Assembly: GCA_021647445.1 (NCBI GenBank)
Contig: JAKIUS010000006.1
Span: 1 to 13,372, forward strand
Source of the DNA: Geopsychrobacter sp.
Lineage (GTDB): Bacteria; Desulfobacterota; Desulfuromonadia; Desulfuromonadales; Geopsychrobacteraceae
DNA length: 13,372 nucleotides
Reading direction: 5' to 3'
Numbering within the stretch: the stretch's first letter is position 1; every line of letters starts with the position of its first letter. Positions 1 to 13,324 of the stretch are shown here, piece by piece. A program made the position numbers and the translations under genes. A model generated the notes under the pieces. The model did no database searches. It worked only from the letters and a program-made list of their open reading frames with translations, and had not been told where the DNA came from.

Positions 1-114
1 GAGAGTCACTTCGGCATCGGTATGATTAACCACCGCCAGATTGGCATAGGTACCTTGGGCAACATCATTATTCAACTGGATTTCAAGAGCAGGCTTAAGT
101 GGTTTTTCAGACAT
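1..114 (-). CDS. DUF3467 family protein, N-terminal 38 residues (cut by window edge)
   Basis: Partial gene. The visible part starts with ATG at 114 and runs off the left edge in an open frame of 38 codons. The translation begins MSEKPLKPALEIQLNN and continues with DVAQGTYANLAVVNH. The pattern 'LQIELxxxxAQGxYxNLAxIxHS' is how I recognise DUF3467, a family of small (about 100 residues) cytosolic proteins of unknown function in anaerobic bacteria. A good Shine-Dalgarno, AAGGAAG (119-125), sits 4 bases upstream of the ATG. The gene follows the CpdReg gene by only 11 bases, so it very probably shares its transcript. It has no signal peptide, which makes it the only apparently cytoplasmic soluble product of this operon. 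The rest of the protein is outside the window, so the family call rests on the N-terminus alone. Confidence 0.75.
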   Translation of the reverse strand, partial: MSEKPLKPALEIQLNNDVAQGTYANLAVVNHTDAEVTL

Positions 115-125
115 CAATCTTCCTT

Positions 126-1166
126 TTAGTCGAGGCGGATAGGGGCAACACGGATTTCAATCGGCTGATTGTGCTTGGCATTTATAATTAAACCATGATC
201 GGCGCGCCCTTCGTAAAGGCCAAAGAGCTCACCTGGGGCAGGGGAATCACCATAGGCCTGGCGCGCGCCGACATAATAGAGCCCCGCTTCACGAAAACTG
301 AGTTCGAAGGAACCATCGGCTTTGGTCTCGGCACTTAAAGCCACCGGACGCTGGTGGCCGATGACCGAATTTCGATAGGCGAAAAAATGCACTCCCTCCA
401 CAGGCAGCCCCGCTTCGTCGACAACGCGCCCACTCAAACGGATCGTGCCGGGCCGATCTGGCAAGGCGACCGAACCCTGACTCGGTTTGCGCGTAACCAG
501 CGGCAATTCCACCTGGGTGGTGGTTCCTGATTTCAGTAACAGCGGATTAGCCGCATAGACCCCCAACAGGTCACCACTGGCCAGCGGCCCGACCCGCGCA
601 CGGTTCTGCCGTTTACGCGCAACCAGATAATAATCACTCTCAGGCAGTCCATCAAAAACAAAAGAACCATCCTCAGCCGTCGGTGCCGAGAGCCGGTAGC
701 CCTGCCCCTTTAGATCTTCCGCAACATCGAGATAGAGCGAAACATAGGCACCGACAACCGGTTGACCATTACTGAGCACGCGTCCCTCTAATGCCGCCGC
801 ATACTCATCAGGGTAACCCAGGATAGTCGCCGCTGTCACCTTGACGGCCTGCAGGCCAGCCCAGATCGGCGCCGCCGATTCCATTACCAGAAGCGGATTA
901 CGGCCGCAAAAGGCAAAATATTTTCCATCTTCAGCATGGGCATAAAGGGCGACAAAACCCGCAGGAACTTCCAACAAAAAGTGACCCTCGGCATCACTTA
1001 TGACCGATGCTCCCAGCGTTTGTCCGGCAGGATTTAGATCGGCAAAGGCCTGCACAATCATCCCCGCAAGAGGGGCGTCGTTAAAGACTACCCGCCCTTC
1101 TATCTGGGCGGCCCCGACCCCAGAACTTAAGCAGCACAAGATCAACAGGATTAACAGCGACTTCAT
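126..1166 (-). CDS. Secreted protein of three carboxypeptidase-regulatory-like modules (CpdReg paralogue 3)
   Basis: 346 residues. A Sec signal peptide (about 1-19, MKSLLILLIL core, cleavage near GVGA) precedes three beta-sandwich modules starting near residues 21 (IEGRVVFNDAPLAG), 126 (LEGRVLSNGQPVVGAYV) and 243 (LSGRVVDEAGLPVEGVHFFAY). Each has the G-x-V-x(4-5)-G-x-P/L-x-x-G signature of CarboxypepD_reg-like (transthyretin-like) folds and a D/E-x-G-x-F turn. Modules 2 and 3 end in a shared extension, 'Y-x-x-x-AR...GP/AP..GD/GE....Y.G/AN'. There is no peptidase domain, so it is a structural or binding protein rather than an enzyme; its ligand is unknown. The ATG overlaps the stop of the beta-helix ORF upstream as ATGA. 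I see no good Shine-Dalgarno, so translation is probably coupled. It is a paralogue of the genes at 2489-3523 and 4707-5774. Periplasmic or extracellular location is inferred from the signal peptide. Confidence 0.85.
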   Translation of the reverse strand: MKSLLILLILCCLSSGVGAAQIEGRVVFNDAPLAGMIVQAFADLNPAGQTLGASVISDAEGHFLLEVPAGFVALYAHAEDGKYFAFCGRNPLLVMESAAPIWAGLQAVKVTAATILGYPDEYAAALEGRVLSNGQPVVGAYVSLYLDVAEDLKGQGYRLSAPTAEDGSFVFDGLPESDYYLVARKRQNRARVGPLASGDLLGVYAANPLLLKSGTTTQVELPLVTRKPSQGSVALPDRPGTIRLSGRVVDEAGLPVEGVHFFAYRNSVIGHQRPVALSAETKADGSFELSFREAGLYYVGARQAYGDSPAPGELFGLYEGRADHGLIINAKHNQPIEIRVAPIRLD

Positions 1167-2026
1167 AGCACAGGCCCGGCGTCCGTGACCGGCTCAGTCA
1201 GAACCGGTTGGAAACTGATTTTATCCAGGAGATAGCGGCCAGGACCGAAGCCCTCATAGGTGACCAGCGGTTTATCGTGACGATCATAAAAAAAGCTCAG
1301 ATTCTTATCATCCCCTGCCCCTTTTAGGATCTCAGTCTTTTCACCCCACCAGTTTCCCGACAGATCGACAACATCGACAAATTCCGTAGGGGCCTGGCCA
1401 AGCATAGAGTTCTTGCTGCCGCGCGCCTGCGCATTTTTCATGACAAGCTGTTTTGAGCCAGAACGTTTTTCCCAATCAGCACTCTGATAGATACCGAGTC
1501 GCGCCCCTTCGCCGGTTTTTTCAAAGTTGTTCTCTTTGACTTCCGGATAGGAGGAATAATCGATAAACAGGGCGAGCTTATTTCCAAAAAAACTGTTCTT
1601 GCTGATTTTTGGATTCGACTTGCGATTGCTATAGATGGCAGTCTCATTATCCTTAAAGAGGTTACGTTCAACCTGCGCCGAACCGAACTGATCGTTCTGT
1701 ACCGCCGTCTTGTTGCCGACAAAACGATTGTTAAGTACCTGCGGAAATGAAAATGAAAAATTTACCAGCGCATATTCATTATCCTGGAAAAAATTCCCCT
1801 CAACCTTAGGGCTATTCTGGGACTGATAACAATAAAGACCGACCCTGTTGCCGATAAAGCGATTATTCCGCACCAGGTCGGGATACTGTTGCAGAATCCC
1901 GATGCCCTGTTCGTTCTTTTCAAAGAAGTTATCTTCAATCAGTCCACGACTGCTGTTCGATGCAGAGATCCCAGATTTTGTATGACCGCTGAAACTGTTG
2001 CCGATTACCTTGGGCGAAGAACGCAT
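1163..2026 (-). CDS. Beta-helix protein, C-terminal part of a frameshifted gene
   Basis: 287 residues without a signal peptide, starting inside a beta-helix coil (MRSSPKVIGNSF). It holds at least seven coils of about 22 residues with the pattern 'P-x-V/I-x-x-N-x-F-x-x-N-x-x-G/A-L/I', for example NRFIGNRVGL and NLFKDNETAI, typical of right-handed parallel beta-helices. After the coils come a charged linker (SADWEKRSG, residues 181-189) and the terminal NWWGE motif (225-229). The paralogue at 3520-4707 has the same order and the same SATWEK...NWWG elements, but in one continuous frame. This ORF overlaps the preceding one (2005-2508) in the -1 frame by 22 bases. Joining them at the AAA run at 2026-2028 with one extra A gives a continuous beta-helix. 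The piece is therefore best read as the downstream half of one gene, broken or misread. The alternative is a separate product by reinitiation at the ATG at 2026. Confidence 0.8.
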   Translation of the reverse strand: MRSSPKVIGNSFSGHTKSGISASNSSRGLIEDNFFEKNEQGIGILQQYPDLVRNNRFIGNRVGLYCYQSQNSPKVEGNFFQDNEYALVNFSFSFPQVLNNRFVGNKTAVQNDQFGSAQVERNLFKDNETAIYSNRKSNPKISKNSFFGNKLALFIDYSSYPEVKENNFEKTGEGARLGIYQSADWEKRSGSKQLVMKNAQARGSKNSMLGQAPTEFVDVVDLSGNWWGEKTEILKGAGDDKNLSFFYDRHDKPLVTYEGFGPGRYLLDKISFQPVLTEPVTDAGPVL

Positions 2027-2508
2027 TTCAATCCGAGTCCGTTATCGGCAAAATGATTGTCACGAATCTCGGCGCTCGATTCGCGCAGCAACTTGATCGC
2101 CGCATCACAACGGATAAAGGAATTACCCTTTATCAGCGGCGAAGTCGCAATAATACCCAACGCCTGAGCACAGTCACTGAATTGGGCATGAACGATCCGA
2201 CTCCCCTTTGCAGCCTCAATAAAAGAGATTCCCTGCCAACCCTTAGATGTCGCAAAAACAACCGGTCGCTCCTGACTGCCGTCAATCACAAGCTGGCCCT
2301 GAACACTGATTTTATCAGCGGGGTTGGAAATGATGATCTTTGTCCCTGCGGCAATACGCAATACGCCCTGAGCGGAAACCTGCACCGGCCCATCAAGACG
2401 AACCTCCCCTTGCCACAAGATCTCTTTATCGATGGTCAACGGCTTAGCCAGTGTCAATGCGGGAATAAAAAGGACGATAAACAGTAGTCTAAGGATGCGC
2501 AGAAACAT
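2005..2508 (-). CDS. Beta-helix protein, N-terminal part of a frameshifted gene
   Basis: 167 residues. A clear Sec signal peptide (1-21, MFLRILRLLFIVLFIPALTLA) is followed by the N-terminal cap shared with the other beta-helix proteins here: LWQGEVRLDGPVQV and, further on, L-x-I-A-A-G-T. Three or so coils follow (IIATSPLIKGNSFIRC, SSAEIRDNHFADNG). At GLGLK the frame leaves the family: it reads CVLRPR and stops, whereas the overlapping frame continues sensibly as MRSSPKVIGNSF. A perfect Shine-Dalgarno, AGGAGG (2518-2523), supports the ATG at 2508, which overlaps the end of the upstream CpdReg gene by 20 bases. The full-length protein would be about 450 residues, similar to the 395-residue paralogue at 3520-4707. 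As it stands this half lacks most coils and the NWWG end, and would probably not fold into the complete helix. Confidence 0.8.
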   Translation of the reverse strand: MFLRILRLLFIVLFIPALTLAKPLTIDKEILWQGEVRLDGPVQVSAQGVLRIAAGTKIIISNPADKISVQGQLVIDGSQERPVVFATSKGWQGISFIEAAKGSRIVHAQFSDCAQALGIIATSPLIKGNSFIRCDAAIKLLRESSAEIRDNHFADNGLGLKCVLRPR

Positions 2509-3523
2509 TAATTTGAACCTCCTTACTCATCCGGGTCGCAGTCAATTGAAGTCCGCGATTATCTGGCGTCTGAAATTTACCATAGAGTTCGCCAGTGACG
2601 GCGGGTCCGCCGATCGCCTGCCGAGCCAGCAGCCAGAAATTACCCATTTCGGGAATCGGCAGCACGAAGCTACCATCAGGGGAAGTGACTGGCGAAATAT
2701 AGGCCGGAGTGCCCGTCATGGTTGAACTGCGATAGGCAAAAACCCGCACCCCGGAGACGGCCGCGCCCTGCGGACCGACGACCCGACCACCGATCCCTGA
2801 GAAAACGGCATCGGGATCATCTTCGAGCATCGAAAGACGGGTAATGGTCTCAAGCTTCACCTGCGTCAAGCGGTTCTTTTCGATATGAACCGGGTTGCCG
2901 TAGTAATAGTTAAAATAATCGCCGATTTCAATAGGACCATACTGTCCACCCTTCAGCCGCTTACGCGCCAGTAACCAATAATCGCCGGGCGGCAGCGACA
3001 TGCGAAAACTTCCCTTCTCAACCGGCTGAATAAACCAGGCAGGCCCTTTGAAATCACTCTCGGTCTTTTTATAGACATAGAGGTAGGTACGCTCCAGAGG
3101 CTGCCCCTGATACCTGATCTCCCCCCAGATCCCTGAACGCCTGCTCTCTTTATCGTGTTGGGTTTGAGGAATCTGGATTAAATTAAAACCTACTTGGCGG
3201 AACCCCTGCTGCGGCACAATGACCGGGGCGCCGCTGTAGTAGCAGAAATAGTCACCGGGCCCCGGAGTGCCGGAATCATTGCGCGCGGTCAAGTAATAAC
3301 GTCCCGGAGGCAATTCAAGGGTATAGGTTCCATCCTGCGCGGCAAAATCAGAGATCGCGAACACCTTACCCGCCGCAATCATATCGATCGCCGTATAAGC
3401 CCGCACCTGTACTCCTGGAATCAACTGCCCCCGCCAGGCGACCCGTCCCTTGACACCGGTCGCAGCCAACAGCGTACTCGGCAGCAGCAGCAAAAAGAAC
3501 ACAGCAATAAACAGATTCCTCAT
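2489..3523 (-). CDS. Secreted protein of three carboxypeptidase-regulatory-like modules (CpdReg paralogue 2)
   Basis: 344 residues. Signal peptide 1-20 (hydrophobic core FIAVFFLLLLPSTLLA), then modules near residues 24 (VKGRVAWRGQLIPGVQVRAY), 131 (IWGEIRYQGQPLERTYLYVY) and 243 (IGGRVVGPQGAAVSGVRVFAY). The first two carry the full extension: RYYLTARNDSG...GPGDYFCYYSGAP (76-99) and DYWLLARKR...GDYFNYYYGNP (181-211); the third has NFWLLARQAIGGP...GELYGKF. These extensions are rich in Tyr and Phe and lie after the beta-sandwich proper. The start is an ATG overlapping the stop of the beta-helix gene (ATGA); AGAGG (3531-3535) lies 7 bases upstream of it. There is no catalytic domain. Role inferred: surface structural or binding protein working with the adjacent beta-helix product. 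Confidence 0.85.
   Translation of the reverse strand: MRNLFIAVFFLLLLPSTLLAATGVKGRVAWRGQLIPGVQVRAYTAIDMIAAGKVFAISDFAAQDGTYTLELPPGRYYLTARNDSGTPGPGDYFCYYSGAPVIVPQQGFRQVGFNLIQIPQTQHDKESRRSGIWGEIRYQGQPLERTYLYVYKKTESDFKGPAWFIQPVEKGSFRMSLPPGDYWLLARKRLKGGQYGPIEIGDYFNYYYGNPVHIEKNRLTQVKLETITRLSMLEDDPDAVFSGIGGRVVGPQGAAVSGVRVFAYRSSTMTGTPAYISPVTSPDGSFVLPIPEMGNFWLLARQAIGGPAVTGELYGKFQTPDNRGLQLTATRMSKEVQINVSAHP
2518..2523 (-). promoter_or_regulatory. Consensus ribosome binding site AGGAGG inside the upstream gene
   Basis: AGGAGG on the minus strand lies 9 bases before the ATG at 2508, within the last codons of the CpdReg gene. It fixes the start of the split beta-helix gene despite the 20-base overlap. It also allows independent initiation, unlike the ATGA junctions elsewhere, which have weaker sites. 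Confidence 0.75.
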
Positions 3524-4707
3524 TTTAAAACCTCTAAACGGTTTGCCCGCTTGTCATAGGGGAACCAGCGCACCCGATCAAGGGGGTACTCGCCCCCACC
3601 CTCTTCAAACAGAGGACGATCTTGACCGTCGTCAATCCAGGCCGGATTCATATCCAAACCTCCCTGCTCCAATAGACGGGTTTCATCGCCACCCCACCAG
3701 TTTTCACGCGCGTCGACGGTACCATCGAGTTGCCGCGCACGGCGTTGCTCCTCACTGACCCGATCCTGCTTCTGACCACCGAAGGCACCGCGACTGGCGA
3801 GTTGATCCTGCCGAGCGAGGGCACCTTTCTCTTTTTCCCAGGTGGCCGATTGAAATTCAAGCATCAACGCCTGCTTGTTGGCGATAAAATTGTTGTGACG
3901 AATGAGCGGATAGGAGGAGAAACTGATGTGGATGGCCAACAGGTTCTGCTTGAACAGATTGGCTTCAATGACAGGATCGGAACGGCGATAAAGCTTGAGC
4001 GCCGTTTGATTGTCCTCAAAAATATTCTCCTCAATTCGCGGTTTGGCAGTCCGGTCGACCTTGATCGCCAACCGATTACGCATAAAACGGTTGGCCTTGA
4101 TGCGCGGATTACTGCCGAAATGCGAAATCATCAACCCTGTGTCGTTATCCAAAAACTGATTCTGTGAAAAATCCTGAGGTTGAGCCCGGTATATGTACGC
4201 GCCGAACTTGCCCTGATGTTCGAAGCGATTACCGCGCACGATGGAGGTCGACTCATCCTTGATAAACAGCCCGACCCGGCTGTTGTTCTGAAACAGAGAG
4301 TCGATAACCCTGGCGCGACTTTTTTGTCGCAACTCAATCCCCACCCGGTTATTTTCCACCATTAGATTTGTCAGCAGGGGCGCACCACCGATTACAGTGA
4401 TCCCGGTCTTTGCCCCACGAATACGACAGGTGCGCAAGACCGTTTTATCCGTGCTGTTTTTCAGCACCAGCCCCGGCCAATCCTCACCGCTGAAGCTGAC
4501 GTCACGGGCTTGCAGCGCGCCTTTGACTTCGATGACCGAAGTGGAAAAAACCTGTGTCCCCGGCGCAATGATCAGCTTGGCATCTTTCTCGATCAACAGA
4601 GGCTCAGTAAGACGAACCTCCCCTTGCCAATGCTCAGTGGTTGTAACCACGCGGGTGCTGACCACAGAGGGCAGCAGCAAAAACAGCAGACAGAGCGCAG
4701 ATTTCAT
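3520..4707 (-). CDS. Secreted right-handed parallel beta-helix protein (intact paralogue)
   Basis: 395 residues from the ATG at 4707; two upstream in-frame codons (GTG, TTG) are less likely starts. Signal peptide about 1-18 (MKSALCLLFLLLPSVVST). The N-cap HWQGEVRL...LIIAPGT (26-51) is followed by about nine coils from roughly residue 85 to 285, repeating N-x-F-x-x-N-x-x-G/A-I/L (NRFEHQGKFG, NQFLDNDTG, NIFEDNQTA, NLFKQNLLA). A charged, Gln- and Arg-rich linker (288-330) leads to the NWWGG motif (336-340) and a terminal strand ending YPLDRVRWFPY. Such folds occur in polysaccharide lyases, epimerases and surface adhesins. I see no lyase-type catalytic triad, so binding or scaffolding is more likely than catalysis. 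The start forms a TGATG overlap with the upstream stop, with GAGG 7 bases before it. It is paired with the CpdReg gene directly downstream, and is the intact counterpart of the split gene at 1163-2508. Confidence 0.88.
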   Translation of the reverse strand: MKSALCLLFLLLPSVVSTRVVTTTEHWQGEVRLTEPLLIEKDAKLIIAPGTQVFSTSVIEVKGALQARDVSFSGEDWPGLVLKNSTDKTVLRTCRIRGAKTGITVIGGAPLLTNLMVENNRVGIELRQKSRARVIDSLFQNNSRVGLFIKDESTSIVRGNRFEHQGKFGAYIYRAQPQDFSQNQFLDNDTGLMISHFGSNPRIKANRFMRNRLAIKVDRTAKPRIEENIFEDNQTALKLYRRSDPVIEANLFKQNLLAIHISFSSYPLIRHNNFIANKQALMLEFQSATWEKEKGALARQDQLASRGAFGGQKQDRVSEEQRRARQLDGTVDARENWWGGDETRLLEQGGLDMNPAWIDDGQDRPLFEEGGGEYPLDRVRWFPYDKRANRLEVLK

Positions 4708-5774
4708 CACCAAACCTCACGGACTAAGATATCACCAAGTTCAGTCGCTCTTTTCGGCACTACATCGATACCATGATCCGGACGTCCATCATAGGTGCCG
4801 ACCCATTCGCCAGGTTCAAGGGGACCACCAAAGGTACTGCGCGCACCGACAAAAAATTCACCGCCGTCCTCAAGATAGATTTTAAACTCGCCGTTTTTAT
4901 CGGTCGGGGCGGAGATAAAATTCGGTTTTCCGATCATACGATTATCACGGTAGGCAAATAGATAAATTCCGGTCACCGGCCTGTGTTCTTCATCGACCAC
5001 CTTGCCGGACAACCAGGTTGAGGTCTGGGTAAATTTGCCCTTGGAGAGCCGCCGATCACGACCTGCTGCTGTAATCGGTTTAAGGTTCCAGTCGAGCAAC
5101 TTAAGCTGTTCGCCAGCCTTGAGGATGATCGGATTCCCCGGGTATTCACCATTTAAGTCCCCGGGTTTGGGATCCCCGGCCCTTGAACCATCGCTGCGTT
5201 TGCGCGCCGCCAGCCAGTAGCGCCCTGCCGAGAGCGCGAGCTCAAAGTGACCCTGTTCATCAGCCTGAACCACCAGACCGTAGGCGGGTCCAGTCAGCCC
5301 TTCCCCTTGAGAATAGACATAAACAAAAGCATCGGCGACCGCACTACCAGCAAGACTCAGTTGACCCTGAGCCAGAGTCTTGCCATCTGAATGGATAGCC
5401 CCTTCAAAACCGACCTCTCTGACCTGCAGCGGTTCGATTTGACTGAAGCCCTTTTCAACCCTGACCGGATTTAGTGGATATTCCGCCATCAGCATCCGAT
5501 TGACCCCGCCACCCTGCTCCTTCTTCTTCGCCACCAGATAGTAATTGCCGGGTGGCAATACGGCATGAAATTCACCTTTGAGATCGGTTGTCGCCACACT
5601 GAACGGGGAAGAAGAACGCTCAGTGCCGCTCTTCAAGTAAAATTCCACCCGTGATTGACCGAGGGGCTGTTGGTTAAAGAGCAGCGCACCTTCAATGCCC
5701 GACTCATCAGAAGAGCAGCCCTGCAGCAACAGGATCAACAGGAACAGAATAGAAAAACGCCGTAACACAAACAT
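4707..5774 (-). CDS. Lipoprotein of three carboxypeptidase-regulatory-like modules (CpdReg paralogue 1)
   Basis: 355 residues from the ATG at 5774. A TTG one codon upstream gives a longer ORF, but the ATG makes a clean TGATG junction with the preceding gene and has GGAG 9 bases upstream. The N-terminus is a lipoprotein signal: MFVLRRFSIL, a leucine-rich core, then the lipobox LLQGC with Cys20. Ser at +2 predicts outer-membrane sorting. Modules begin near residues 27 (IEGALLFNQQPLG), 123 (FEGAIHSDGKTLAQGQLSLAG) and 255 (LSGKVVDEEHRPVTGIYLFAY). The second and third have the shared extension (RYWLAARKRSDG...GDLNGEYPGNP; FFVGARSTFGGPLEPGEWVGTYDGRPDHG). The DHG tail motif recurs in the paralogue at 126-1166 (RADHG). 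It is the only lipid-anchored member of the three, so it may tether the others to the membrane. That role is inference. Confidence 0.87.
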   Translation of the reverse strand: MFVLRRFSILFLLILLLQGCSSDESGIEGALLFNQQPLGQSRVEFYLKSGTERSSSPFSVATTDLKGEFHAVLPPGNYYLVAKKKEQGGGVNRMLMAEYPLNPVRVEKGFSQIEPLQVREVGFEGAIHSDGKTLAQGQLSLAGSAVADAFVYVYSQGEGLTGPAYGLVVQADEQGHFELALSAGRYWLAARKRSDGSRAGDPKPGDLNGEYPGNPIILKAGEQLKLLDWNLKPITAAGRDRRLSKGKFTQTSTWLSGKVVDEEHRPVTGIYLFAYRDNRMIGKPNFISAPTDKNGEFKIYLEDGGEFFVGARSTFGGPLEPGEWVGTYDGRPDHGIDVVPKRATELGDILVREVW

Positions 5775-8200
5775 CAAAGGGCTCTCCGAGGCAGCAGAAA
5801 AAGCGCAACAAGATAGAGGGCGGATCCCAACAGTATTGTCAGATTAAAACCAAAGTTCATCGCCACCACCACCGCCAGGATCGTCCCTAGGACGCTCGCA
5901 GCTCCATTGATCCCCCAACTCCAGGGGATTGCACGACCATCGCGATGCAACAGCGCCATGCCTAGGGGCAAGGGCATACCAAGCAGCAGCGCCAACGGAA
6001 TCAACAGCAGCATCGCAATCAGGCAGCGGAGCAATAAAGATAACCCGACCAGCGAGGTCAGGATACCTGGCAGCAGGTAACAATAGACAGGACTGAGCAA
6101 GACAAGTGCCAACAGTATCCGTTTTAAAAAGACGCTATCGCCCCCCTTGCTGGCGGAGAGACGACTGCCGATGCCGGAAAAGATCAGCAGAGAAAAAAGA
6201 ATAACCGCCAACGAATAGATCGGATGGCCGAGGAACAGGATAAAACGTCTCAACAGACCGATTTCGATCATCATAAAACCAAGCCCCAGACAACTAAAAT
6301 AACCCGCACGACGTAAGGCCAGCCGATTATCGGCTTCACGATTACGGCTTAAAAACAGGGGCAAGGCGAAAAACACGACAACCAGGAAGGCCGTCACCAG
6401 TAGGAGATTGCGTAAAATCAGAATGGCGCGATCCTCGAACGGGCTCCGTTCAGGGAAGGAGAAGAGATCGAGAAAGGCCGCGGGTTTAAGCATGTAATAG
6501 AAAAAGGGCCGATTGTCATTTGTCGGCGTGATATCGAAGGGGAAATCACGATAGAAGTCATCACTGCCATTGGCGGCAATTAAGGCCTTGAAGGTTTTAT
6601 CCCCCTCCGCAGCTCCCGGCAAATAGACCAGATCATAGTCTTGCTTACGCGCCTCTTCACGAAGAAAAGCGCGTTCGGTGGCGCTAAAAGCACTCTTTTT
6701 AAGCATGAAATTGGCGAGACCACGCTCCTTTATCACCGCAATATGGTACGCCGGATTCTCGACTCCTTCACGCTTCAACAGTTCAAGTCCTAAAGAGACC
6801 AGACGTAGGGTCTCACGCTCGAAAATAAAGCGCGAAATGGTCAACACCCCGGCCGGCTTGAGATGTGACCAATAATCCTGAAAAGCCTCCAGGGTATAGA
6901 GATTATTTTCAGAGAGGGTAAAGGCCCCGGCAGCGGGCGGCATCCGACCAAAGACCGCGGAGGCCTGAATAATGTCGAAATGCTCCTGGCTACGGCGCAC
7001 ATAGCTGCGTCCTTCCGCGATCTGCAATTCAACATCAGGCCGCTCATAGAGCGCACCGGTAAAATCAGCAAAACGCTTATTGACCGCCTCGACAATTAAG
7101 GGATTGATCTCCACCGGCACAATTCGTTTTGCCCCGTTGGCGATGGCGGTCAGGACATCCTTCCCCCCACCTGGCCCGATGATCAGAGTCTCCGCCTGCG
7201 GACGCAGCAGGTACGCTAGATTGATGACATTCTGGCGGAAAAAGCGCAGCGTCTCCTCCCCCTGCCAACGATACATGGTGGTATAGCCGGTGTCATCAAC
7301 CACCATACCTAGCTGCTCAGGCACTGGTCCGCGATAGTTACGCGACAGCCCCCAGGCACGCCCCATCTCTTCGGCTTGCGCTGGATAGACCGCAACCCGC
7401 GAAAAAGAGTTCCAGGATTTCCAGAGCAGATTCGGTTCGTAGCGACCACGCGCAAAATGAATATCGGCAAAGTGACCGAGCTGATTACCGATGGTCAAAG
7501 ACAAGAGCAACAGGGCAAAGATCGGCACCAAGGTTCGTAAGCGGCTACGCGCAGGGATCAGGAAGAAGGATCCCAAGAGAAAGCAGAGCCCGACCACCAG
7601 CAGGCCGGTAATCCCGCCCACCAGTTTCAAAACCAGGATAATCAACAAACAACCGGTTCCTGCCCCCAACAAATCGAAAAAATAGAGTCGCCCGATCTGC
7701 CGATGATAACGTCGAAACAACAGGGTGACAGTCAGTCCGCTGAAGAAAAAAGGCAGGGCGGTCGCGAGATAGAGAAGGGTCAGAAGAAAGATTTGACCCA
7801 TAGCGATCGATTGCCGAACGTTGCCCTGCTGAAAAGGTTGATAAAAGGGCTGATGAAAAAAGGACAGGACACGAAAGCCGAACTGGGGATCGGCCCGAAA
7901 AAGCAGAAATACGGCAAACAACAACAGGGTCGAAAGACCGGCCGCCAGGGCAAACAGACCGGGCAACTGTTCTTTCTCCTCAGCAAACCAGCGTGGGCGT
8001 AAATAGACCAGCAGAGCCGATGCGCCGAGCCCGAACAGGGCCAGGCTGATCGCCATCGAGGCAAAGTGATACCACATCAGCACCGAAAATATGCGTGTGA
8101 GCAACAACTCGTACATCAATGTTGCCATGCACAGGATAAAAATCCCCAGGCAATGTAAACCGAATTTATCCGGGTGCGGGGTATTATTCACGGGAACCAT
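5774..8200 (-). CDS. Polytopic membrane protein with spermidine-synthase-like (SAM-binding fold) domain
   Basis: 808 residues. About seven hydrophobic segments lie in the N-terminal part (roughly 17-35, 45-66, 80-101, 135-160, 172-193, 196-215, 221-238). A soluble Rossmann domain (about 265-570) follows, then about seven more segments (592-802). The soluble domain shows the nucleotide loop IGPGGGKDVL (341-350), the ribose-binding acidic residue in VEIN (363-366) and EGRSYVRR (396-403). It resembles aminopropyltransferases, but where they have the catalytic Asp in 'YDVIIxD' this protein reads FDIIQAS, with Ser414 at that place. It continues with MPPAAGAFTLSENNLYT (420-436) and PTNDNRPFF (559-567), motifs of a widespread uncharacterised membrane branch. 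Polyamine synthesis is therefore doubtful. The fold suggests SAM or decarboxylated-SAM binding at the membrane. The ATG at 8200 overlaps the upstream gene by 17 bases, with AAGGGGG directly upstream. It is encoded amid exported repeat proteins, so it may modify or export one of them (inference). Confidence 0.85.
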   Translation of the reverse strand: MVPVNNTPHPDKFGLHCLGIFILCMATLMYELLLTRIFSVLMWYHFASMAISLALFGLGASALLVYLRPRWFAEEKEQLPGLFALAAGLSTLLLFAVFLLFRADPQFGFRVLSFFHQPFYQPFQQGNVRQSIAMGQIFLLTLLYLATALPFFFSGLTVTLLFRRYHRQIGRLYFFDLLGAGTGCLLIILVLKLVGGITGLLVVGLCFLLGSFFLIPARSRLRTLVPIFALLLLSLTIGNQLGHFADIHFARGRYEPNLLWKSWNSFSRVAVYPAQAEEMGRAWGLSRNYRGPVPEQLGMVVDDTGYTTMYRWQGEETLRFFRQNVINLAYLLRPQAETLIIGPGGGKDVLTAIANGAKRIVPVEINPLIVEAVNKRFADFTGALYERPDVELQIAEGRSYVRRSQEHFDIIQASAVFGRMPPAAGAFTLSENNLYTLEAFQDYWSHLKPAGVLTISRFIFERETLRLVSLGLELLKREGVENPAYHIAVIKERGLANFMLKKSAFSATERAFLREEARKQDYDLVYLPGAAEGDKTFKALIAANGSDDFYRDFPFDITPTNDNRPFFYYMLKPAAFLDLFSFPERSPFEDRAILILRNLLLVTAFLVVVFFALPLFLSRNREADNRLALRRAGYFSCLGLGFMMIEIGLLRRFILFLGHPIYSLAVILFSLLIFSGIGSRLSASKGGDSVFLKRILLALVLLSPVYCYLLPGILTSLVGLSLLLRCLIAMLLLIPLALLLGMPLPLGMALLHRDGRAIPWSWGINGAASVLGTILAVVVAMNFGFNLTILLGSALYLVALFLLPRRAL

Positions 8201-10034
8201 CCCCCTTCGGTGCAGGTTGAACCAATTGTAAAGCGTGCAATTTCTGATCGCGACTGCCGAAATAGAGACGGTTCCCGGTCACCAACACCCGGGACTGAAT
8301 GGCTCCACCAGCCCGGTAACGTGCCAGAGTTCGGCCACTATCGAAATCAATCAGATGCAAGACACCATCGTTATCGCCGACCAGCAGACCAGCCGCACAG
8401 GCGACTGGCGAAGCATAGACCGAAGCACCGAGGCTGAAAGACCAGTGATCGCGACCCGTGACAGGATCTATTTTGCGTATTGTCCCTGAAGCCGTCACCA
8501 GGTACAGAGCATCCTTAACCAAAAGCGGAGTTGCATAAAAAGCGGCCTGCTTAAGGCGTCGTTGCCAGCGCAGCGCCCCATCATCAGCCAATGAGGTCAG
8601 AGTGCCCATTTTATCAAGCAGCAACAGTTGTTTTTTATAAGCAACAGGCGTCGTGATCAGAGGAGCATCCATCTTGTGTTGCCAGAGAAGTTGACCATTC
8701 AGGTCCAGCGCGGTGAGCTGTCTGGCTCCACTCGGCTGATAAATAACCCCATCAGCAACCAGCGGCTTGGCACGAAGGGGCATCCCGGCAGCAAACGACC
8801 ACTGTAATTGCTCGGTTTTGCGCTCGAAAGCATAGAGGGTACCATTCCAGGCTGGCAGCAGCAGAAGTTTGTCGGTAGCGACTAAACCCGCTTGACGATG
8901 GTCATCTGCGGGGCTGCCTGAATAGGTATAGATAAGCCGATCACGCCCGGTTTTCTGATCGATCGCATGCAGTTCTCGACGCCAGTTTTGTAAAAAAATC
9001 TGCCCCTCAGTCATCAGGAGTCCAGCATCGATGACATCGCCGGTGGGAGTCGTCCAGACAACCCGCCCTGCTTGATCAACGGCCCGCAGTGCACCATCCC
9101 AGGACGCAAAATAAATCAATCCGGCAGCAGTCTCGGCGGAGCTGTCGACAAAACCTTCAGTCGCCACCTGCCACAGAGGCTTAAAGGCCGCAGTATGCTG
9201 GATACCGGCCTCTGTTCGCCAGCTTAAAGCGGGGACAAACCGCACCATACCCAATTCGGCATCATCTTCATGATCATGGATCGATTGTGCAATCAACGCG
9301 AGCTCAGACTCACCCCACCAGTTGTTCGATACTGAAATATTATCGTTAAAGAAATCGCCCAATTGCAGATTCACCCCGTTGCGATAAATATTATTCCTAC
9401 TGATAACCGACGTCCCCGGCTTCTCAAAGAGGAAAATACCGGTGCGATTATCACGGATAATATTATCGATCAGGGTTACTTCTGAATCGCGAAAGTTGAT
9501 CCCCTTGCCCGTATTCTGCTCAACCAGATTGTATTGAAACAGAAAACGCGAACGACCCAGCCGCGAACCGTCAATATTGTGATGAATATAACTGTTGCGT
9601 ATATGCCCACGGGTGAAGTGGGCATGCAGGGTATAAGCACTGTCGCGAAATTCACACCAATCAAAGAGCAACTGACGGGCAAAATCGCTGCGAATTTCCA
9701 ACCAGTCTGCAGGCTGCGGGTCGGTTTCGGCGGAGAGAAAACGGATCGGCCTGGACTCTGTACCGACAGCGATCAGACTCCCCTTAACGATGATCGTCGC
9801 ATCGCCCAAACCATCGCGATCCGCATCGCGCCGCACAAACCGAATATTAGTCCCCGGCTCAATCCGCAGGGTGACGCCTTTTACAACCGTTACCGCTCCA
9901 TCGATAATCACCTCACCCTGCCAGTGGGTATCGGAGGTCAGCAACACTTTCCCCGTGAGGATTCGTGGCTGGGACCCCGGCAGCGGCATCATGCAACCGG
10001 TCAGAAAAAACAATATTAACGGTACTATTCGCAT
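8184..10034 (-). CDS. Lipoprotein fusing a beta-helix to a BamB-like PQQ-repeat beta-propeller
   Basis: 616 residues from the ATG at 10034. A TTG at 10082 extends the frame, but only the inner ATG is followed directly by a signal (MRIVPLILFFLTGC, lipobox LTGC, Cys14) and preceded by AGGA at 5-6 bases. Met at +2 predicts outer-membrane sorting. Residues 25-270 form a beta-helix with the shared N-cap HWQGEVII...LRIEPGT (37-62), a calcium-loop-like DADRDGLGD (70-78), several coils and the closing NWWGE (238-242). Residues about 285-605 carry eight propeller repeats, such as YFASWDGALRAVD, LPAWNGTLYAFE, YLVTASGTIRKIDPVTG and YFGSRDQKLHAL. They match PQQ_2/BamB-like repeats in spacing but show no sign of an alcohol dehydrogenase active site, so PQQ binding should not be assumed. 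It is the first gene of the operon, behind a terminator and a sigma-54-like promoter. It probably acts at the outer membrane as a scaffold or binding protein. Confidence 0.87.
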   Translation of the reverse strand: MRIVPLILFFLTGCMMPLPGSQPRILTGKVLLTSDTHWQGEVIIDGAVTVVKGVTLRIEPGTNIRFVRRDADRDGLGDATIIVKGSLIAVGTESRPIRFLSAETDPQPADWLEIRSDFARQLLFDWCEFRDSAYTLHAHFTRGHIRNSYIHHNIDGSRLGRSRFLFQYNLVEQNTGKGINFRDSEVTLIDNIIRDNRTGIFLFEKPGTSVISRNNIYRNGVNLQLGDFFNDNISVSNNWWGESELALIAQSIHDHEDDAELGMVRFVPALSWRTEAGIQHTAAFKPLWQVATEGFVDSSAETAAGLIYFASWDGALRAVDQAGRVVWTTPTGDVIDAGLLMTEGQIFLQNWRRELHAIDQKTGRDRLIYTYSGSPADDHRQAGLVATDKLLLLPAWNGTLYAFERKTEQLQWSFAAGMPLRAKPLVADGVIYQPSGARQLTALDLNGQLLWQHKMDAPLITTPVAYKKQLLLLDKMGTLTSLADDGALRWQRRLKQAAFYATPLLVKDALYLVTASGTIRKIDPVTGRDHWSFSLGASVYASPVACAAGLLVGDNDGVLHLIDFDSGRTLARYRAGGAIQSRVLVTGNRLYFGSRDQKLHALQLVQPAPKGDGSRE

Positions 10035-10197: not shown

Positions 10198-11679
10198 TTA
10201 TTTGATCGATGCAACCTGTCCGAGAGTCGGCTCGACAATTTTCAGGATCTGCCCGGTCGAAACACCCTCGATGCTTGCCTCAATACCACTGGGAAAGAGT
10301 GCAACAACATCATAGGTCGCGCCAGCGTCAAGACCAAAATGTGCGGTCAGAGGGTTTTGAGCGCAGAATCCGGTCGCTGTGGCAACAGCACGCTCAGCAA
10401 CCAACTTACCAGCCTGGTAGACCCTGATCCTGGTTCCAACGGCATCACGGTTAGAAACACTACCGATGGCATTAACCTCTAACCAATTGTTGTCATTCTG
10501 GTCATTGAGATAAAGTTTATTAGGCGCGCCCCAGTTCACAACATAGAGATCCAGGTCGCCATCGTTATCCACATCGGCAAAGGCAGTCCCCTTGGTCCGG
10601 ACCGTTGAACACTGAAGTTGTGGTTGCTCACCAGCAATATCGGTAAAGTAGCCCTTGCCATCATTGACATACATCTGATTGGCGAGTTTGCAATCCCCTT
10701 CATAGAGATCGAGGTCGCCATCGTTATCGATATCACCGAAAACTGGTCCTTTTCCCCAGCCCTTGTGGTCCTTCTTGATGCGATCCGAAGCGACAGTAAA
10801 GACCCCCTTACCATCGTTTAAATAGAGCCCGTTTTCACCAACATAGTTGGAGACAAAGAGGTCAAGATCGCCATCGTTATCGATATCGGCAAAAGCGGCA
10901 CCCAATCCCCAATTCGGATCAGCAACTCCGGCCTCACGCGAGACATCCTTAAATGTACCATCACCATTATTCAAGAAGAGGCTATTCGGCTCACCGGTCG
11001 GGTAACGTCCGTTGACGACGTAGAGATCTTGCAAATTATCACCGTTAACATCGGCCCAGACGCCCATCCAACTCCAGGAGAGGTCACCGACCCCGGCCAG
11101 ATCGGTCACGTCGGTAAAGGTACCATCACCGTTATTACGATAGAGTACATTCTTGGCTCCCGGACCATAGTTGGCACAGTAGAGATCGAGGCGTCCGTCA
11201 TTATCGTAATCGACAAAACTGGCCGAATAAGTAAAAAGCTTGAGGCCAACGCCAGCCTTCTCGGTCACATCTTCAAATTTACCGTTGCCGAGGTTATGGA
11301 ACAGACGATTCGCTTCAATTTCGTAACGCCCCCCTTTGGCAAGATAAAGATCGGGCAGACCGTCATTATCATAATCGCCAAAGACACTCCCCATGCTGAA
11401 CCCGGGATCATCAATGCCGGCACCGGCAGTCGCCGTGATATCCTCAAAGAGGCCATTGCCACTGTTGCGGAAGAGTTTGTTCGCTCCACCCTTGTTAGAG
11501 ATATAGAGATCCACATAACCGTCATTGTCGATATCAGCAAAGGCAACGCCTTTTCCAAGACCATCATCGGCAACGCCAGATGTCTTGGAGATATCAACAA
11601 ATTCCTGAGCAAAAGCAGGTCCGGCCAACAGAGCCATAACAACAAACAGAACGAATGAACGAACAGGCCACCTCATCAT
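10198..11679 (-). CDS. Secreted FG-GAP/VCBS beta-propeller protein with ASPIC/UnbV domain (CRTAC1-like)
   Basis: 493 residues from the ATG at 11679, chosen because AAGGAG lies 8 bases upstream and a proper signal peptide follows (MMRWPVRSFV... cleaved after AFA, residue 24). A longer frame starts at a TTG at 11730 and is unlikely. Seven FG-GAP repeats carry the calcium motif DxDNDGxxDLY near residues 49, 102, 157, 209, 265, 316 and 369. The fourth is the variant DVNGDNLQDLY. Seven repeats fit a complete integrin-like seven-bladed propeller. The C-terminal part (about 398-482) is an ASPIC/UnbV domain (NNWLEVNAIGS, VGTRIRVY, TAHFGLDAG, LFPSGIEASI). Such proteins are exported and thought to bind calcium and surface ligands; the exact function is unknown. 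It has its own upstream region and terminator, so it is probably monocistronic. Its repeat theme matches the neighbouring operon, which suggests a surface role. Confidence 0.9.
   Translation of the reverse strand: MMRWPVRSFVLFVVMALLAGPAFAQEFVDISKTSGVADDGLGKGVAFADIDNDGYVDLYISNKGGANKLFRNSGNGLFEDITATAGAGIDDPGFSMGSVFGDYDNDGLPDLYLAKGGRYEIEANRLFHNLGNGKFEDVTEKAGVGLKLFTYSASFVDYDNDGRLDLYCANYGPGAKNVLYRNNGDGTFTDVTDLAGVGDLSWSWMGVWADVNGDNLQDLYVVNGRYPTGEPNSLFLNNGDGTFKDVSREAGVADPNWGLGAAFADIDNDGDLDLFVSNYVGENGLYLNDGKGVFTVASDRIKKDHKGWGKGPVFGDIDNDGDLDLYEGDCKLANQMYVNDGKGYFTDIAGEQPQLQCSTVRTKGTAFADVDNDGDLDLYVVNWGAPNKLYLNDQNDNNWLEVNAIGSVSNRDAVGTRIRVYQAGKLVAERAVATATGFCAQNPLTAHFGLDAGATYDVVALFPSGIEASIEGVSTGQILKIVEPTLGQVASIK
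10542..10900 (-). repeat. DNA-level direct repeats inside the FG-GAP coding sequence
   Basis: Segments coding for the calcium loops of propeller repeats 5, 6 and 7 are nearly identical in DNA. The plus-strand block 'catagagatc' then 'aggtcgccatcgttatc' occurs at 10542-10569 and again at 10701-10728 with one or two changes. A shorter related block, 'gatcgccatcgttatc', lies at 10866-10881. Spacing is about 153-159 bases, one propeller blade. The near identity at synonymous positions suggests recent internal duplication or gene conversion between blades rather than a mobile repeat. Confidence 0.6.
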
Positions 11680-11797
11680 CGCAACATCTCCTTTTTCATA
11701 TCGATGATCGACAGAACGAATTATCGACAACTAAAATTTTAAAAAACTTATCGGACAACTAATTTGGATGTAATAATCACGAACTTTATCACAAAAA

Positions 11798-11960: not shown

Positions 11961-12917
11961 TTATGTAAATGTTTGCAGGAGCAGACCCATCAACACCGAG
12001 ATCGAAATCCCTAGAGCGATAAATACCACAAGCAAACGCCGCTCAAACATCGCGCCGAGAGCTATCATGGCGGGCAGACTGGTCACGGGACCAGCCAAAA
12101 GCAGGGTCAGCGCTGCCCCCCGGTCAATGCCCATCTCAAGCAAGCCGGAGATAATCGGGATAATTGGAATCTGATTGGTCGGCAGTGGCAAGCCAATAAG
12201 CGCTGCCATCAATAACGACCAGAGACTCTGGGTACCAACCAACATTTTAATCCAGGAGACTGGGACCAGCGTGACAATCAGGGCCTCAAGCAGGATCGCG
12301 AGCAGCAGATAGCGACCGATGAAGAGAGCTGCATCCAGACTACGGTCAAAAATGAAACGCAACTGACTATCGCGCGGGACGATCTGCATGCGCTTGACCT
12401 GAACGCCAACCTCGGCACCGATGTCGGCCGCCGGGGCCAGAGAACCATCCTGACGATAGATCGGTTTAAGCAGAATCATTTCGCTATTCAGCCAACCGCG
12501 ACGTTCCAACAACAGGACCACAAAACCGGAGACAAGACCTAGGACCGCAGCGCCAACAACCTTATAAAGAGCCCATTCCCCACCTAAGCCACTCCAGGTC
12601 AGCAACAGAGCATCCGGGCCCATGACCGGTGAAGTCACCAATAGCGCCATCAGCGGAGCCAGCGGAGTGCCGACCATGGCGAGGGTAATAAAAACCGGCA
12701 GAATCCCACAGGCGCAGAGGGGAGAAACCATGCCGATAATAACCGCCACCGGGATGGCATAACTGCCGGCGCGGACGATTGAATCTCTAATTTTAAGATC
12801 GAGTTTGTAGCCCTTGATCAGACCGACCAGCAGCACCGAAAGCAGGAAAATCCACCACATCTTGGCGATTTCAAGCCAGACGACATCAAAAAACTGTTGC
12901 CACCAAGGGGCGTTCAT
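11961..12917 (-). CDS. Membrane permease of the ArsP/UPF0718 (DUF318) type
   Basis: 318 residues with about eight hydrophobic segments in two halves joined by a polar cytoplasmic stretch (about 140-190). The first half carries the family signature SPLCACGILP (65-74), close to the usual PLCSCG; the two Cys (68, 70) are the residues implicated in substrate handling in ArsP. The second half carries the repeat equivalent GLPLPTNQIPIIP (242-254) and LLAGPVTSLPAM (273-284). ArsP members export trivalent organoarsenicals; many relatives have unknown substrates, so the cargo here is uncertain. The ATG overlaps the upstream FmdE-like gene by ATGA, so the two proteins are translated together and probably act on the same metal or metalloid. 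No ArsR-type regulator is visible in the window. Confidence 0.8.
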   Translation of the reverse strand: MNAPWWQQFFDVVWLEIAKMWWIFLLSVLLVGLIKGYKLDLKIRDSIVRAGSYAIPVAVIIGMVSPLCACGILPVFITLAMVGTPLAPLMALLVTSPVMGPDALLLTWSGLGGEWALYKVVGAAVLGLVSGFVVLLLERRGWLNSEMILLKPIYRQDGSLAPAADIGAEVGVQVKRMQIVPRDSQLRFIFDRSLDAALFIGRYLLLAILLEALIVTLVPVSWIKMLVGTQSLWSLLMAALIGLPLPTNQIPIIPIISGLLEMGIDRGAALTLLLAGPVTSLPAMIALGAMFERRLLVVFIALGISISVLMGLLLQTFT

Positions 12918-13324
12918 TGTTCCGACCCGTTCTGCCCGATGAGCAAGAGTGAATTTTCCGGAGCTGTCCGAAAAGTCTTGAGTAAGGCATCACGTTCGGA
13001 TTCCGAATCTAAAGAACGATAGGAAGCCGCAAGTTTAAGCGCCTCGGGTCGCAGTTCAATGATCCAGTTATTTTTCTGATCGGAGATCAAAAGCCGGTGT
13101 CTCTCCTTAGTATCGACCTGCAACCCGCCAAAATCGAGGGCGAGACGAATGCCATCAACGGCACAGGTCTGAATTTTGTAAATGGCCGATTTTGTCCCAC
13201 CAACCAATCGACGCTGTGCCGCCCAGCCAATACGCAGCCCCAGAGTGCTCATGGGACAATAATGACCATGCTGCACAGCAAGAGCAGAAAACAACTTTGG
13301 GCTCGGGAGTTCAGAATGCGTCAA
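12914..13324 (-). CDS. FmdE-family protein (short, N-terminal domain only)
   Basis: 136 residues. The motif HGHYCPMSTLGLRIG (19-33) and the later TCAVDGIRLAL (53-63) mark the FmdE domain, first named in formylmethanofuran dehydrogenase operons. Cys23 and Cys54 with the His pair are likely metal ligands. The C-terminal zinc-finger-like domain found in longer FmdE proteins is absent. There is no signal peptide, so it is cytosolic. The start is TTG at 13324: an in-frame TAG at 13334-13336 blocks any longer start, and the next internal ATG (codon 25) would remove the HGHYC motif. A modest AGGG lies 8 bases upstream. Its stop overlaps the permease start by ATGA. Together they suggest a metal-binding cytosolic partner for the permease. 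No formylmethanofuran or molybdenum enzyme gene is present, so the original FmdE role does not apply. Confidence 0.8.
   Translation of the reverse strand: MTHSELPSPKLFSALAVQHGHYCPMSTLGLRIGWAAQRRLVGGTKSAIYKIQTCAVDGIRLALDFGGLQVDTKERHRLLISDQKNNWIIELRPEALKLAASYRSLDSESERDALLKTFRTAPENSLLLIGQNGSEQ

Follow-up and report, generated by a model that had tools for sequence, protein, structure and literature searches.

The 13,372-nucleotide stretch of DNA analysed here (the window) is the entire contig C152 of a draft Geopsychrobacter sp. genome that is 71% complete (assembly GCA_021647445.1, contig JAKIUS010000006.1), and its genes, all read from the minus strand, are the middle of a Desulfuromonadales locus of about 16 genes. 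The order of this locus is FmdE, ArsP_1, FG-GAP, CPR0, BHPQQ, SPM, CPR1-BH1-CPR2-BH2-CPR3, DUF3467, BH3, OPU, DUF362 with a twin-arginine translocation (Tat) signal, and NapGH, with the upstream FG-GAP gene (VCBS in the window) and CPR0 present in some loci or families only. SPM is the 808-residue membrane protein, CPR0 to CPR4 are CarboxypepD_reg (transthyretin-like) domain proteins, BH1 to BH3 and BHPQQ are beta-helix proteins, OPU is an OpuAC-family protein, and NapGH is a NapH–NapG fusion polyferredoxin. The gene content suggests that the locus may encode a cell-envelope apparatus for quinol-linked redox chemistry and transport, a reading to which we give a probability of about 0.4. An original prediction, made from the letters of the window, had proposed a surface-assembly operon at positions 1–10034. 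The unit it recognised is real, but the conserved set extends upstream within the window (VCBS, ArsP_1, FmdE) and downstream past the end of the window.

Conservation of the unit was probed using 32 SPM loci from relatives, 26 of them with SPM at about 60% identity or more (two of these 26 being short fragments only), together with counts across 136 Desulfuromonadales genomes, 88 of which are at least 90% complete (genomes and loci are cited below by G and L numbers). CPR2 orthologues were called at 50% identity or above and NapGH at E 1e-100 or better, while an SPM match in G111 (32%) and a CPR2 match in G056 (38–41%) were set aside from the order-wide counts. SPM is found in 40 genomes and CPR2 in 42, with both in 39; SPM occurs without CPR2 once (G130, at a contig edge) and CPR2 without SPM three times (G002 and G008, at contig edges, and G077). 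Restricting the count to the 88 genomes at least 90% complete leaves 29 with both genes, 59 with neither, and none with SPM only or CPR2 only. In 35 of the 39 genomes one contig carries both genes on one strand, 2254–2589 bases apart; in the other four they are on separate draft contigs. The original prediction had staked the claim that these genes belong together on a co-occurrence test, and the genes proved to be anything but rarely together: the set is a conserved unit. Each of the folds involved is widespread, and a chance neighbourhood of common folds with no functional link would be conceivable on that ground. That explanation is already refuted by the co-occurrence counts, and the fixed spacing in 35 pairs and the sorting of the CPR and BH operon positions into separate clades (weakly so for BH1) likewise leave its probability close to nil.

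The layout of the locus is constant wherever the contig is long enough, with CPR1 following SPM in 21 of 21 loci and CPR2, BH2 and CPR3 present in 20 of 20; the departures are a gene split by a frame break in L009 and L018, and an over-long frame in L019 that makes BH1 sort ahead of CPR1. In the reference relative locus L002 (22 kb, SPM 84% identical to that of the window), the genes beyond DUF3467 are BH3, OPU, the Tat-signal DUF362 protein and NapGH. On the 5' side of FmdE, near a ThiF-type gene, are an AAA ATPase and a 107-residue protein. The ATPase (L002:4018-4905) reaches 92% identity across genera and has many conserved cysteines.

The emphasis of the original prediction on a surface structure missed the part of the locus that also points to redox chemistry and transport, namely NapGH, DUF362 and OPU in the relatives and ArsP_1 and FmdE in the window. 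NapGH has the make-up of a dual Sec-Tat polyferredoxin, with a NapH part and a NapG part. Its Fe-S cysteines are conserved, and it has an internal twin-arginine motif (SRRTLL in L002), of which Arg302 and Arg303 are conserved in 93% or more of 16 rows; a strict RRxxFL-type pattern finds only 6 of 24 proteins and misses that of L002. NapGH is present in 61 of the 136 genomes, including all 29 complete genomes that bear the SPM–CPR2 module as compared with 17 of the 59 complete genomes that do not, and in 23 of 36 genomes NapGH and the module are no more than 25 kb apart. OpuAC/choline-type substrate-binding proteins have two lobes that close on the ligand; OPU (L002:19231-19827) keeps one lobe only. 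The FmdE-like protein of 136 residues (12914..13324) is the first gene of the locus within the window, and its L002 orthologue matches PF02663 at 5.3e-10. At least 93% of 20 FmdE rows retain His19, His21, Cys23, Cys54 and His76, and the match to the solved structure 2glz is weak (E 0.046). The adjoining ArsP_1 permease (11961..12917, 318 residues; PF03773, 5.1e-39) has Cys68 and Cys70 conserved in 93% or more of 26 rows, and FmdE and ArsP_1 are neighbours in 18 pairs among the 32 loci.

The 808-residue SPM protein (5774..8200; PF01564, Spermine_synth, 1.1e-5) consists of seven transmembrane (TM) segments, a spermidine-synthase-like domain and seven further segments. The predicted model, with a predicted local distance difference test (pLDDT) score of 84.4 and a predicted template modelling (pTM) score of 0.86, places seven plus seven long helices around one domain, in agreement with the earlier description of a 14-segment membrane protein with a Rossmann domain. 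Structure comparison shows that the inserted domain has the overall aminopropyltransferase (spermidine synthase) fold and that the two helix bundles superpose on MFS proteins, giving the membrane part an MFS fold. The domain was judged against the GGGDG loop and the catalytic DSxD, the motifs of spermidine synthases, with the corresponding residues of 1inl taken from an alignment. The glycine loop of SPM is GPGGGKD or GPGGGRD in 38 of 38 close rows rather than GGGDG, and QAS stands where DSxD is expected in 19 of 19 close rows. Scores against curated polyamine models are far below the cut-offs (26.5 bits vs 249.55 for TIGR00417; 31 vs 260 for NF002010), and loop charges predict that the domain is on the periplasmic side in 25 of 25 aligned proteins.

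Since the catalytic motif is missing and the domain is predicted to be periplasmic, polyamine synthesis or S-adenosylmethionine (SAM)-dependent modification by SPM is unlikely. The earlier suggestion that the membrane protein modifies a component is weakened by the same two results. The fold of a polyamine-making enzyme seems to have been turned into a non-catalytic part outside the inner membrane. An operon serving polyamines, with SPM active as a polyamine synthase or as a SAM enzyme of the cytoplasm, would fit the aminopropyltransferase fold of the domain and the acidic Glu364, which is invariant in the SPM alignment. This explanation is very improbable given the motifs, the model scores and the charge topology, and no other polyamine gene was recognised in the locus; polyamine synthesis and cytoplasmic methyl transfer were both rejected on the absent motifs and predicted topology.

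Across 277 genomes of the class (SPM at E 1e-60 or better), matches of at least 60% all fall within the order, and 12 matching genomes outside it are at 32–35%. Distant homologues at 30–35% have no CPR or beta-helix gene adjoining SPM in any of ten neighbourhoods, of which L112 spans only 5.5 kb; in G140 a cluster of ArsP, ResB, OPU, CPR and beta-helix genes begins about 4.6 kb away. Partners were likewise lacking at five of six SPM loci at 33–36%, though L026 (6.2 kb) and L028 (3.1 kb) are short, and are present in L025 (36%).

The CPR and beta-helix proteins make up most of the remaining locus. BHPQQ (8184..10034) is a 616-residue lipoprotein with a beta-helix (PF13229, 8.5e-10) followed by a PQQ-type propeller (PF13360, PQQ_2, 5.9e-28), and CPR1 (4707..5777; PF13620, 1.2e-10) is a lipoprotein with CarboxypepD_reg domains. 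The two lipoproteins that had been predicted are confirmed by the lipoboxes LTGC (BHPQQ) and LQGC (CPR1), and at least 93% of 26 CPR1 rows retain the lipobox Cys21. A loose lipobox test across orthologues is unspecific, as it flags the permease too (22 of 22), and the lipoprotein calls rest on the window lipoboxes and on Cys21. The other exported proteins are the right-handed beta-helix protein BH1 (3520..4713; PF13229, 4.9e-28; PF05048 NosD, 2.2e-24), the CarboxypepD_reg proteins CPR2 (2489..3523; PF13620, 1.7e-12) and CPR3 (126..1166; PF13620, 3.1e-17), and the beta-helix protein BH2 (1163..2508). Trees were built from 43 CPR rows and 44 BH rows after rows shorter than 180 residues and most rows below 75% of the reference length were dropped; two beta-helix rows from a second operon (M3, described below) and one L025 row are on very long branches. 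The operon positions form separate, well-supported clades except for BH1 (83/59), so the CPR–BH pairs appear to be old duplicates. BHPQQ and BH3 are nearest each other, in a clade of 20 rows that includes one M3 row (99/99; own fork 86/26), and CPR0 groups weakly with CPR3 (85/57). Searches of solved structures with BH1, CPR2, DUF362 and ArsP_1 gave no useful match.

The NosD match of BH1 raises the question of a Nos-like maturation system, in which NosD-type beta-helices, NapGH and a permease would deliver metal to a periplasmic enzyme. NosD occurs with NosGH in epsilonproteobacterial nos clusters, and a NapGH-type protein is found in the present locus. In addition to the metal-ligand-like conserved residues of FmdE and ArsP_1, BHPQQ has a conserved Cys127 and an HAHF motif (His137, His139; HAHF in 17 of 19 orthologues), BH3 (L002:18379-19212) has a conserved HFC motif (His136, Cys138; HFC in 18 of 19), and HAHF recurs in the M3 beta-helix protein (L100:12428-13498) of G004, a genome of the window's own genus. 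The HxHF/HFC residues of these three beta-helix proteins are a possible metal site. However, such motifs are absent from 18 of 20 BH1 and 16 of 20 BH2 proteins. The best score against the NosD copper maturation model TIGR04247 is 73.2 bits (BH1, 1.4e-20), far under the cut-off of 300 bits. A NosF/NosY pair, NosL and NosZ were not recognised among the scanned proteins, with no genome-wide search made for them. A Nos-like role is unlikely, although together with the cytochrome explanation below it is one of the two main rivals of the redox and transport reading.

For the redox and transport apparatus, the computed features suggest the following scheme. NapGH would draw on the quinol pool for electrons and deliver them to the periplasm, while the Tat-signal DUF362 protein, the single-lobe OPU, and ArsP_1 with FmdE would handle a small solute or metal-type cofactor. 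The paired CPR and beta-helix proteins, some of them lipid-anchored, would form a periplasmic or outer-membrane scaffold, and SPM would be an MFS-fold inner-membrane protein whose periplasmic spermidine-synthase-like domain, devoid of the catalytic motif, would act in binding or docking. We infer that these parts would contact one another and assemble into a single apparatus. Several observations weigh against this scheme. The locus encodes no terminal enzyme, and for none of its products is a substrate known; the beta-helix and CPR folds are too common to be good guides to function; and DUF362 has only two conserved cysteines, which suggests no Fe-S cluster. The SPM topology is based on charge counts and a model, and Glu364 with the glycine-rich loop could mean a retained nucleoside-type ligand, which would be odd for a periplasmic site. 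Furthermore, the parts are separable: of 36 genomes, 13 showed no NapGH closer than 25 kb to the module. In seven of these (G040, G049, G094, G096, G097, G108, G109) the downstream flanks place it elsewhere, and contig breaks may account for the other six. NapGH is also present in 25 of 93 module-free genomes.

The surface-assembly operon originally proposed, in which the membrane protein would export a component or alter it chemically, draws on the exported repeat proteins, the lipoproteins and the tight gene packing, and an MFS fold would permit export. It is nonetheless quite improbable, as the SPM catalytic motifs are missing in close orthologues, the domain is predicted to lie in the periplasm away from the cytoplasmic SAM pool, and the redox and solute-handling genes of the locus speak against it. 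A single outer-membrane or extracellular complex of the products, as the original prediction supposed, would be hypothetical, the pointers to it in the sequences being signal and lipobox patterns only.

A further explanation puts the locus in the service of multiheme cytochromes that transfer electrons outside the cell: it would assemble, export or anchor them, with the beta proteins as scaffold or chaperones. In genomes of one family (f14: G049, G094, G096, G097), frames with at least 10 CxxCH motifs (up to 46) occur in seven of eight SPM-module flank stretches; of 20 control stretches of 20 kb, taken at even intervals from G049 and G097, only 2 hold such frames. They also occur in only 3 of 30 other module flanks (L059, L062, L097), some of which overlap or repeat a genome, and as f14 is a single family its flanks may reflect one inherited event. 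ResB is a family known from cytochrome c biogenesis, and CPR0 paralogues lie near ResB in G041, G029 and G004, where one antisense frame intervenes. In G056 it is a CPR2 homologue that lies beside ResB, and the cluster in G140 (L115:660-7322; same class, outside the order) also includes ResB. These ResB proteins were assigned by Pfam in G004, G041, G056 and G140 and by similarity in G029. PF14522 matches are more numerous in module-bearing genomes at least 90% complete (median 8, n = 29, vs 3, n = 59; p 9e-6), a difference confounded by phylogeny. Geopsychrobacter electrodiphilus, which we take to respire electrodes and iron, carries the locus, but the Geopsychrobacter flank L053 has frames of 7 and 4 CxxCH only, and no multiheme protein is encoded among the core-locus genes (CxxCH check in L002). 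A cytochrome role is thus possible but not general, and as an account of the whole locus it is doubtful.

The locus is also modular. In G049 and G040 an AAA-FmdE-ArsP-CPR0-BHPQQ-OPU-DUF362-NapGH locus (L068, L069) is separate from M2, that is, SPM-CPR1-BH1-CPR2-BH2-CPR3 with or without BH3. In G013 and G029 (L074, L079) the run is AAA-FmdE-ArsP-BHPQQ-BH2-like-DUF3467-OPU, and M2, DUF362 and NapGH are missing from the site; G027 has a shorter BH2-like-DUF3467-OPU run (L075), and DUF362-NapGH stands alone in L070, L072, L073, L080 and L082. M2 is separate and adjoins EB_dh-CPR4-HEAT-Fer4_5 in G040, G041, G049, G094, G096, G097, G108, G109 and G131. Giant multiheme proteins (up to 46 CxxCH, about 2976 residues) are found beside M2 in one family (L057, L085, L087, L088, L095).

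The second operon, M3, has the order EB_dh-CPR4-HEAT-NapH-like-beta-helix-beta-helix-PhnD-like-TPR-Sulf_transp and occurs in G004, G048, G047, G058, G001, G050 and G056, although in particular genomes individual genes are truncated at a contig end, merged or unrecognised. The M3 loci are L100, L103, L116, L118, L120–L123 and L127, and radical SAM/SPASM genes follow M3 in G004 and G050. Comparison of OPU with the M3 PhnD-like protein gave nothing; an M3 OPU-like protein, which has no Pfam match, resembles OPU weakly (26% over 87 residues including the signal peptide). The recipe shared by these clusters, namely a NapH-type protein or ResB, a substrate-binding protein, a permease, CPR proteins and beta-helices, is the main basis on which we infer a redox and transport apparatus. 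Tentatively, the two sister operons, found in Geopsychrobacter electrodiphilus and several other genomes, may represent a new class of envelope redox-transport machine in the Desulfuromonadales. Each would combine a NapH-type membrane Fe-S protein, an orphan substrate-binding protein (single-lobe in the larger operon), an ArsP_1 or Sulf_transp permease, CPR lipoproteins and HxHF/HFC beta-helices, and the larger would in addition have taken up a catalytically dead spermidine-synthase fold, which would sit in the periplasm on its MFS-like carrier as a domain for sensing or docking.

Within positions 1–10034 of the window, the packed minus-strand frames are as described originally, with overlaps of 4–22 bases at all junctions from BHPQQ to CPR3 and a gap of +11 from CPR3 to DUF3467, but they number nine frames from eight genes rather than eight frames. 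Likewise, the exported repeat proteins amount to seven frames from six genes (BHPQQ, CPR1, BH1, CPR2, two frames of BH2, CPR3) and not six from five. The DUF3467 assignment holds: the gene start at 1..114 (38 codons, cut at the contig end) is 84% identical over 38 residues to the L002 gene, which matches PF11950 at 1.8e-28. Upstream of BHPQQ, VCBS (10198..11730) is a probably exported FG-GAP/UnbV_ASPIC repeat protein (PF13517, 8.8e-65; PF07593, 2.8e-7). BH2 is a single open frame of 450 residues in L002, while the window copy has a net frame change near 2005–2026 that yields two frames (2508–2005 and 2026–1163), each with a Beta_helix match, below the family cut-off in the first piece. Because the frame breaks of relatives fall elsewhere (SPM in L009 and L018, BH2 in L009, CPR1 in L029), the split is most likely an assembly error or private mutation; a programmed frameshift was rejected on the same ground and on the open frame in relatives. 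Scans for promoters (10 found vs 10.5 expected) and terminators (25 vs 16.9 expected, standard deviation 4.0) returned consensus matches only and are uninformative. A defence system was rejected after a PADLOC scan of eight proteins returned only weak AAA matches.

These results bring together eight genes whose annotations had been generic (hypothetical, carboxypeptidase-regulatory, beta-helix or spermidine synthase) as a single conserved unit, whose gene order is fixed and whose redox theme can be tested, and Geopsychrobacter electrodiphilus is a cultured species with the locus in which a knockout could be made. The Desulfuromonadales include iron- and electrode-respiring species, and the routes of electrons and cofactors through their envelope are an open question. 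The results also suggest that 'spermidine synthase' labels on SPM-like membrane proteins are probably wrong. The original prediction knew of no characterised system with this set; our literature searches likewise found no description of it, and term searches within PMC12133095 and PMC8235581 gave no occurrences.

Comparison with known systems reveals partial likenesses. As in Nos clusters with NosD and NosGH, NosD-Pfam beta-helices and a NapGH-type redox protein share one locus, although the scores against the curated NosD model are far too low and NosZ, NosFY and NosL were unrecognised in the scanned proteins. SPM resembles the fused MFS/spermidine synthases of NF037959 (cut-off 40 bits) in joining an MFS-type part to a spermidine-synthase-like domain. 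In contrast to them, it has no match to that model at E up to 0.1 and carries its domain between two seven-helix halves. The same model matches f14 proteins in L058 (8620-11154) and L086 (8668-11202) at 100.7 and 111.4 bits, and these also lack DSxD (SQPSNP). SV2A is an MFS protein with a domain inserted between TM7 and TM8; the match to SPM is at 12% identity, the inserted domain is a different one, and no shared function is claimed. The multiheme-cytochrome conduits and nanowire loci of Desulfuromonadia occur in the same organisms and adjacent to the module in one family, whereas the core locus is without a multiheme protein. Another close system is NapGH, the dual Sec-Tat polyferredoxin (PMC5449189), which the relatives' NapH–NapG fusion matches in its Fe-S cysteines and internal twin-arginine motif. 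The differences are that no nitrate reductase gene was recognised in the stretches read, and that the fusion is here tied to DUF362, a single-lobe OPU, beta-helix and CPR proteins.

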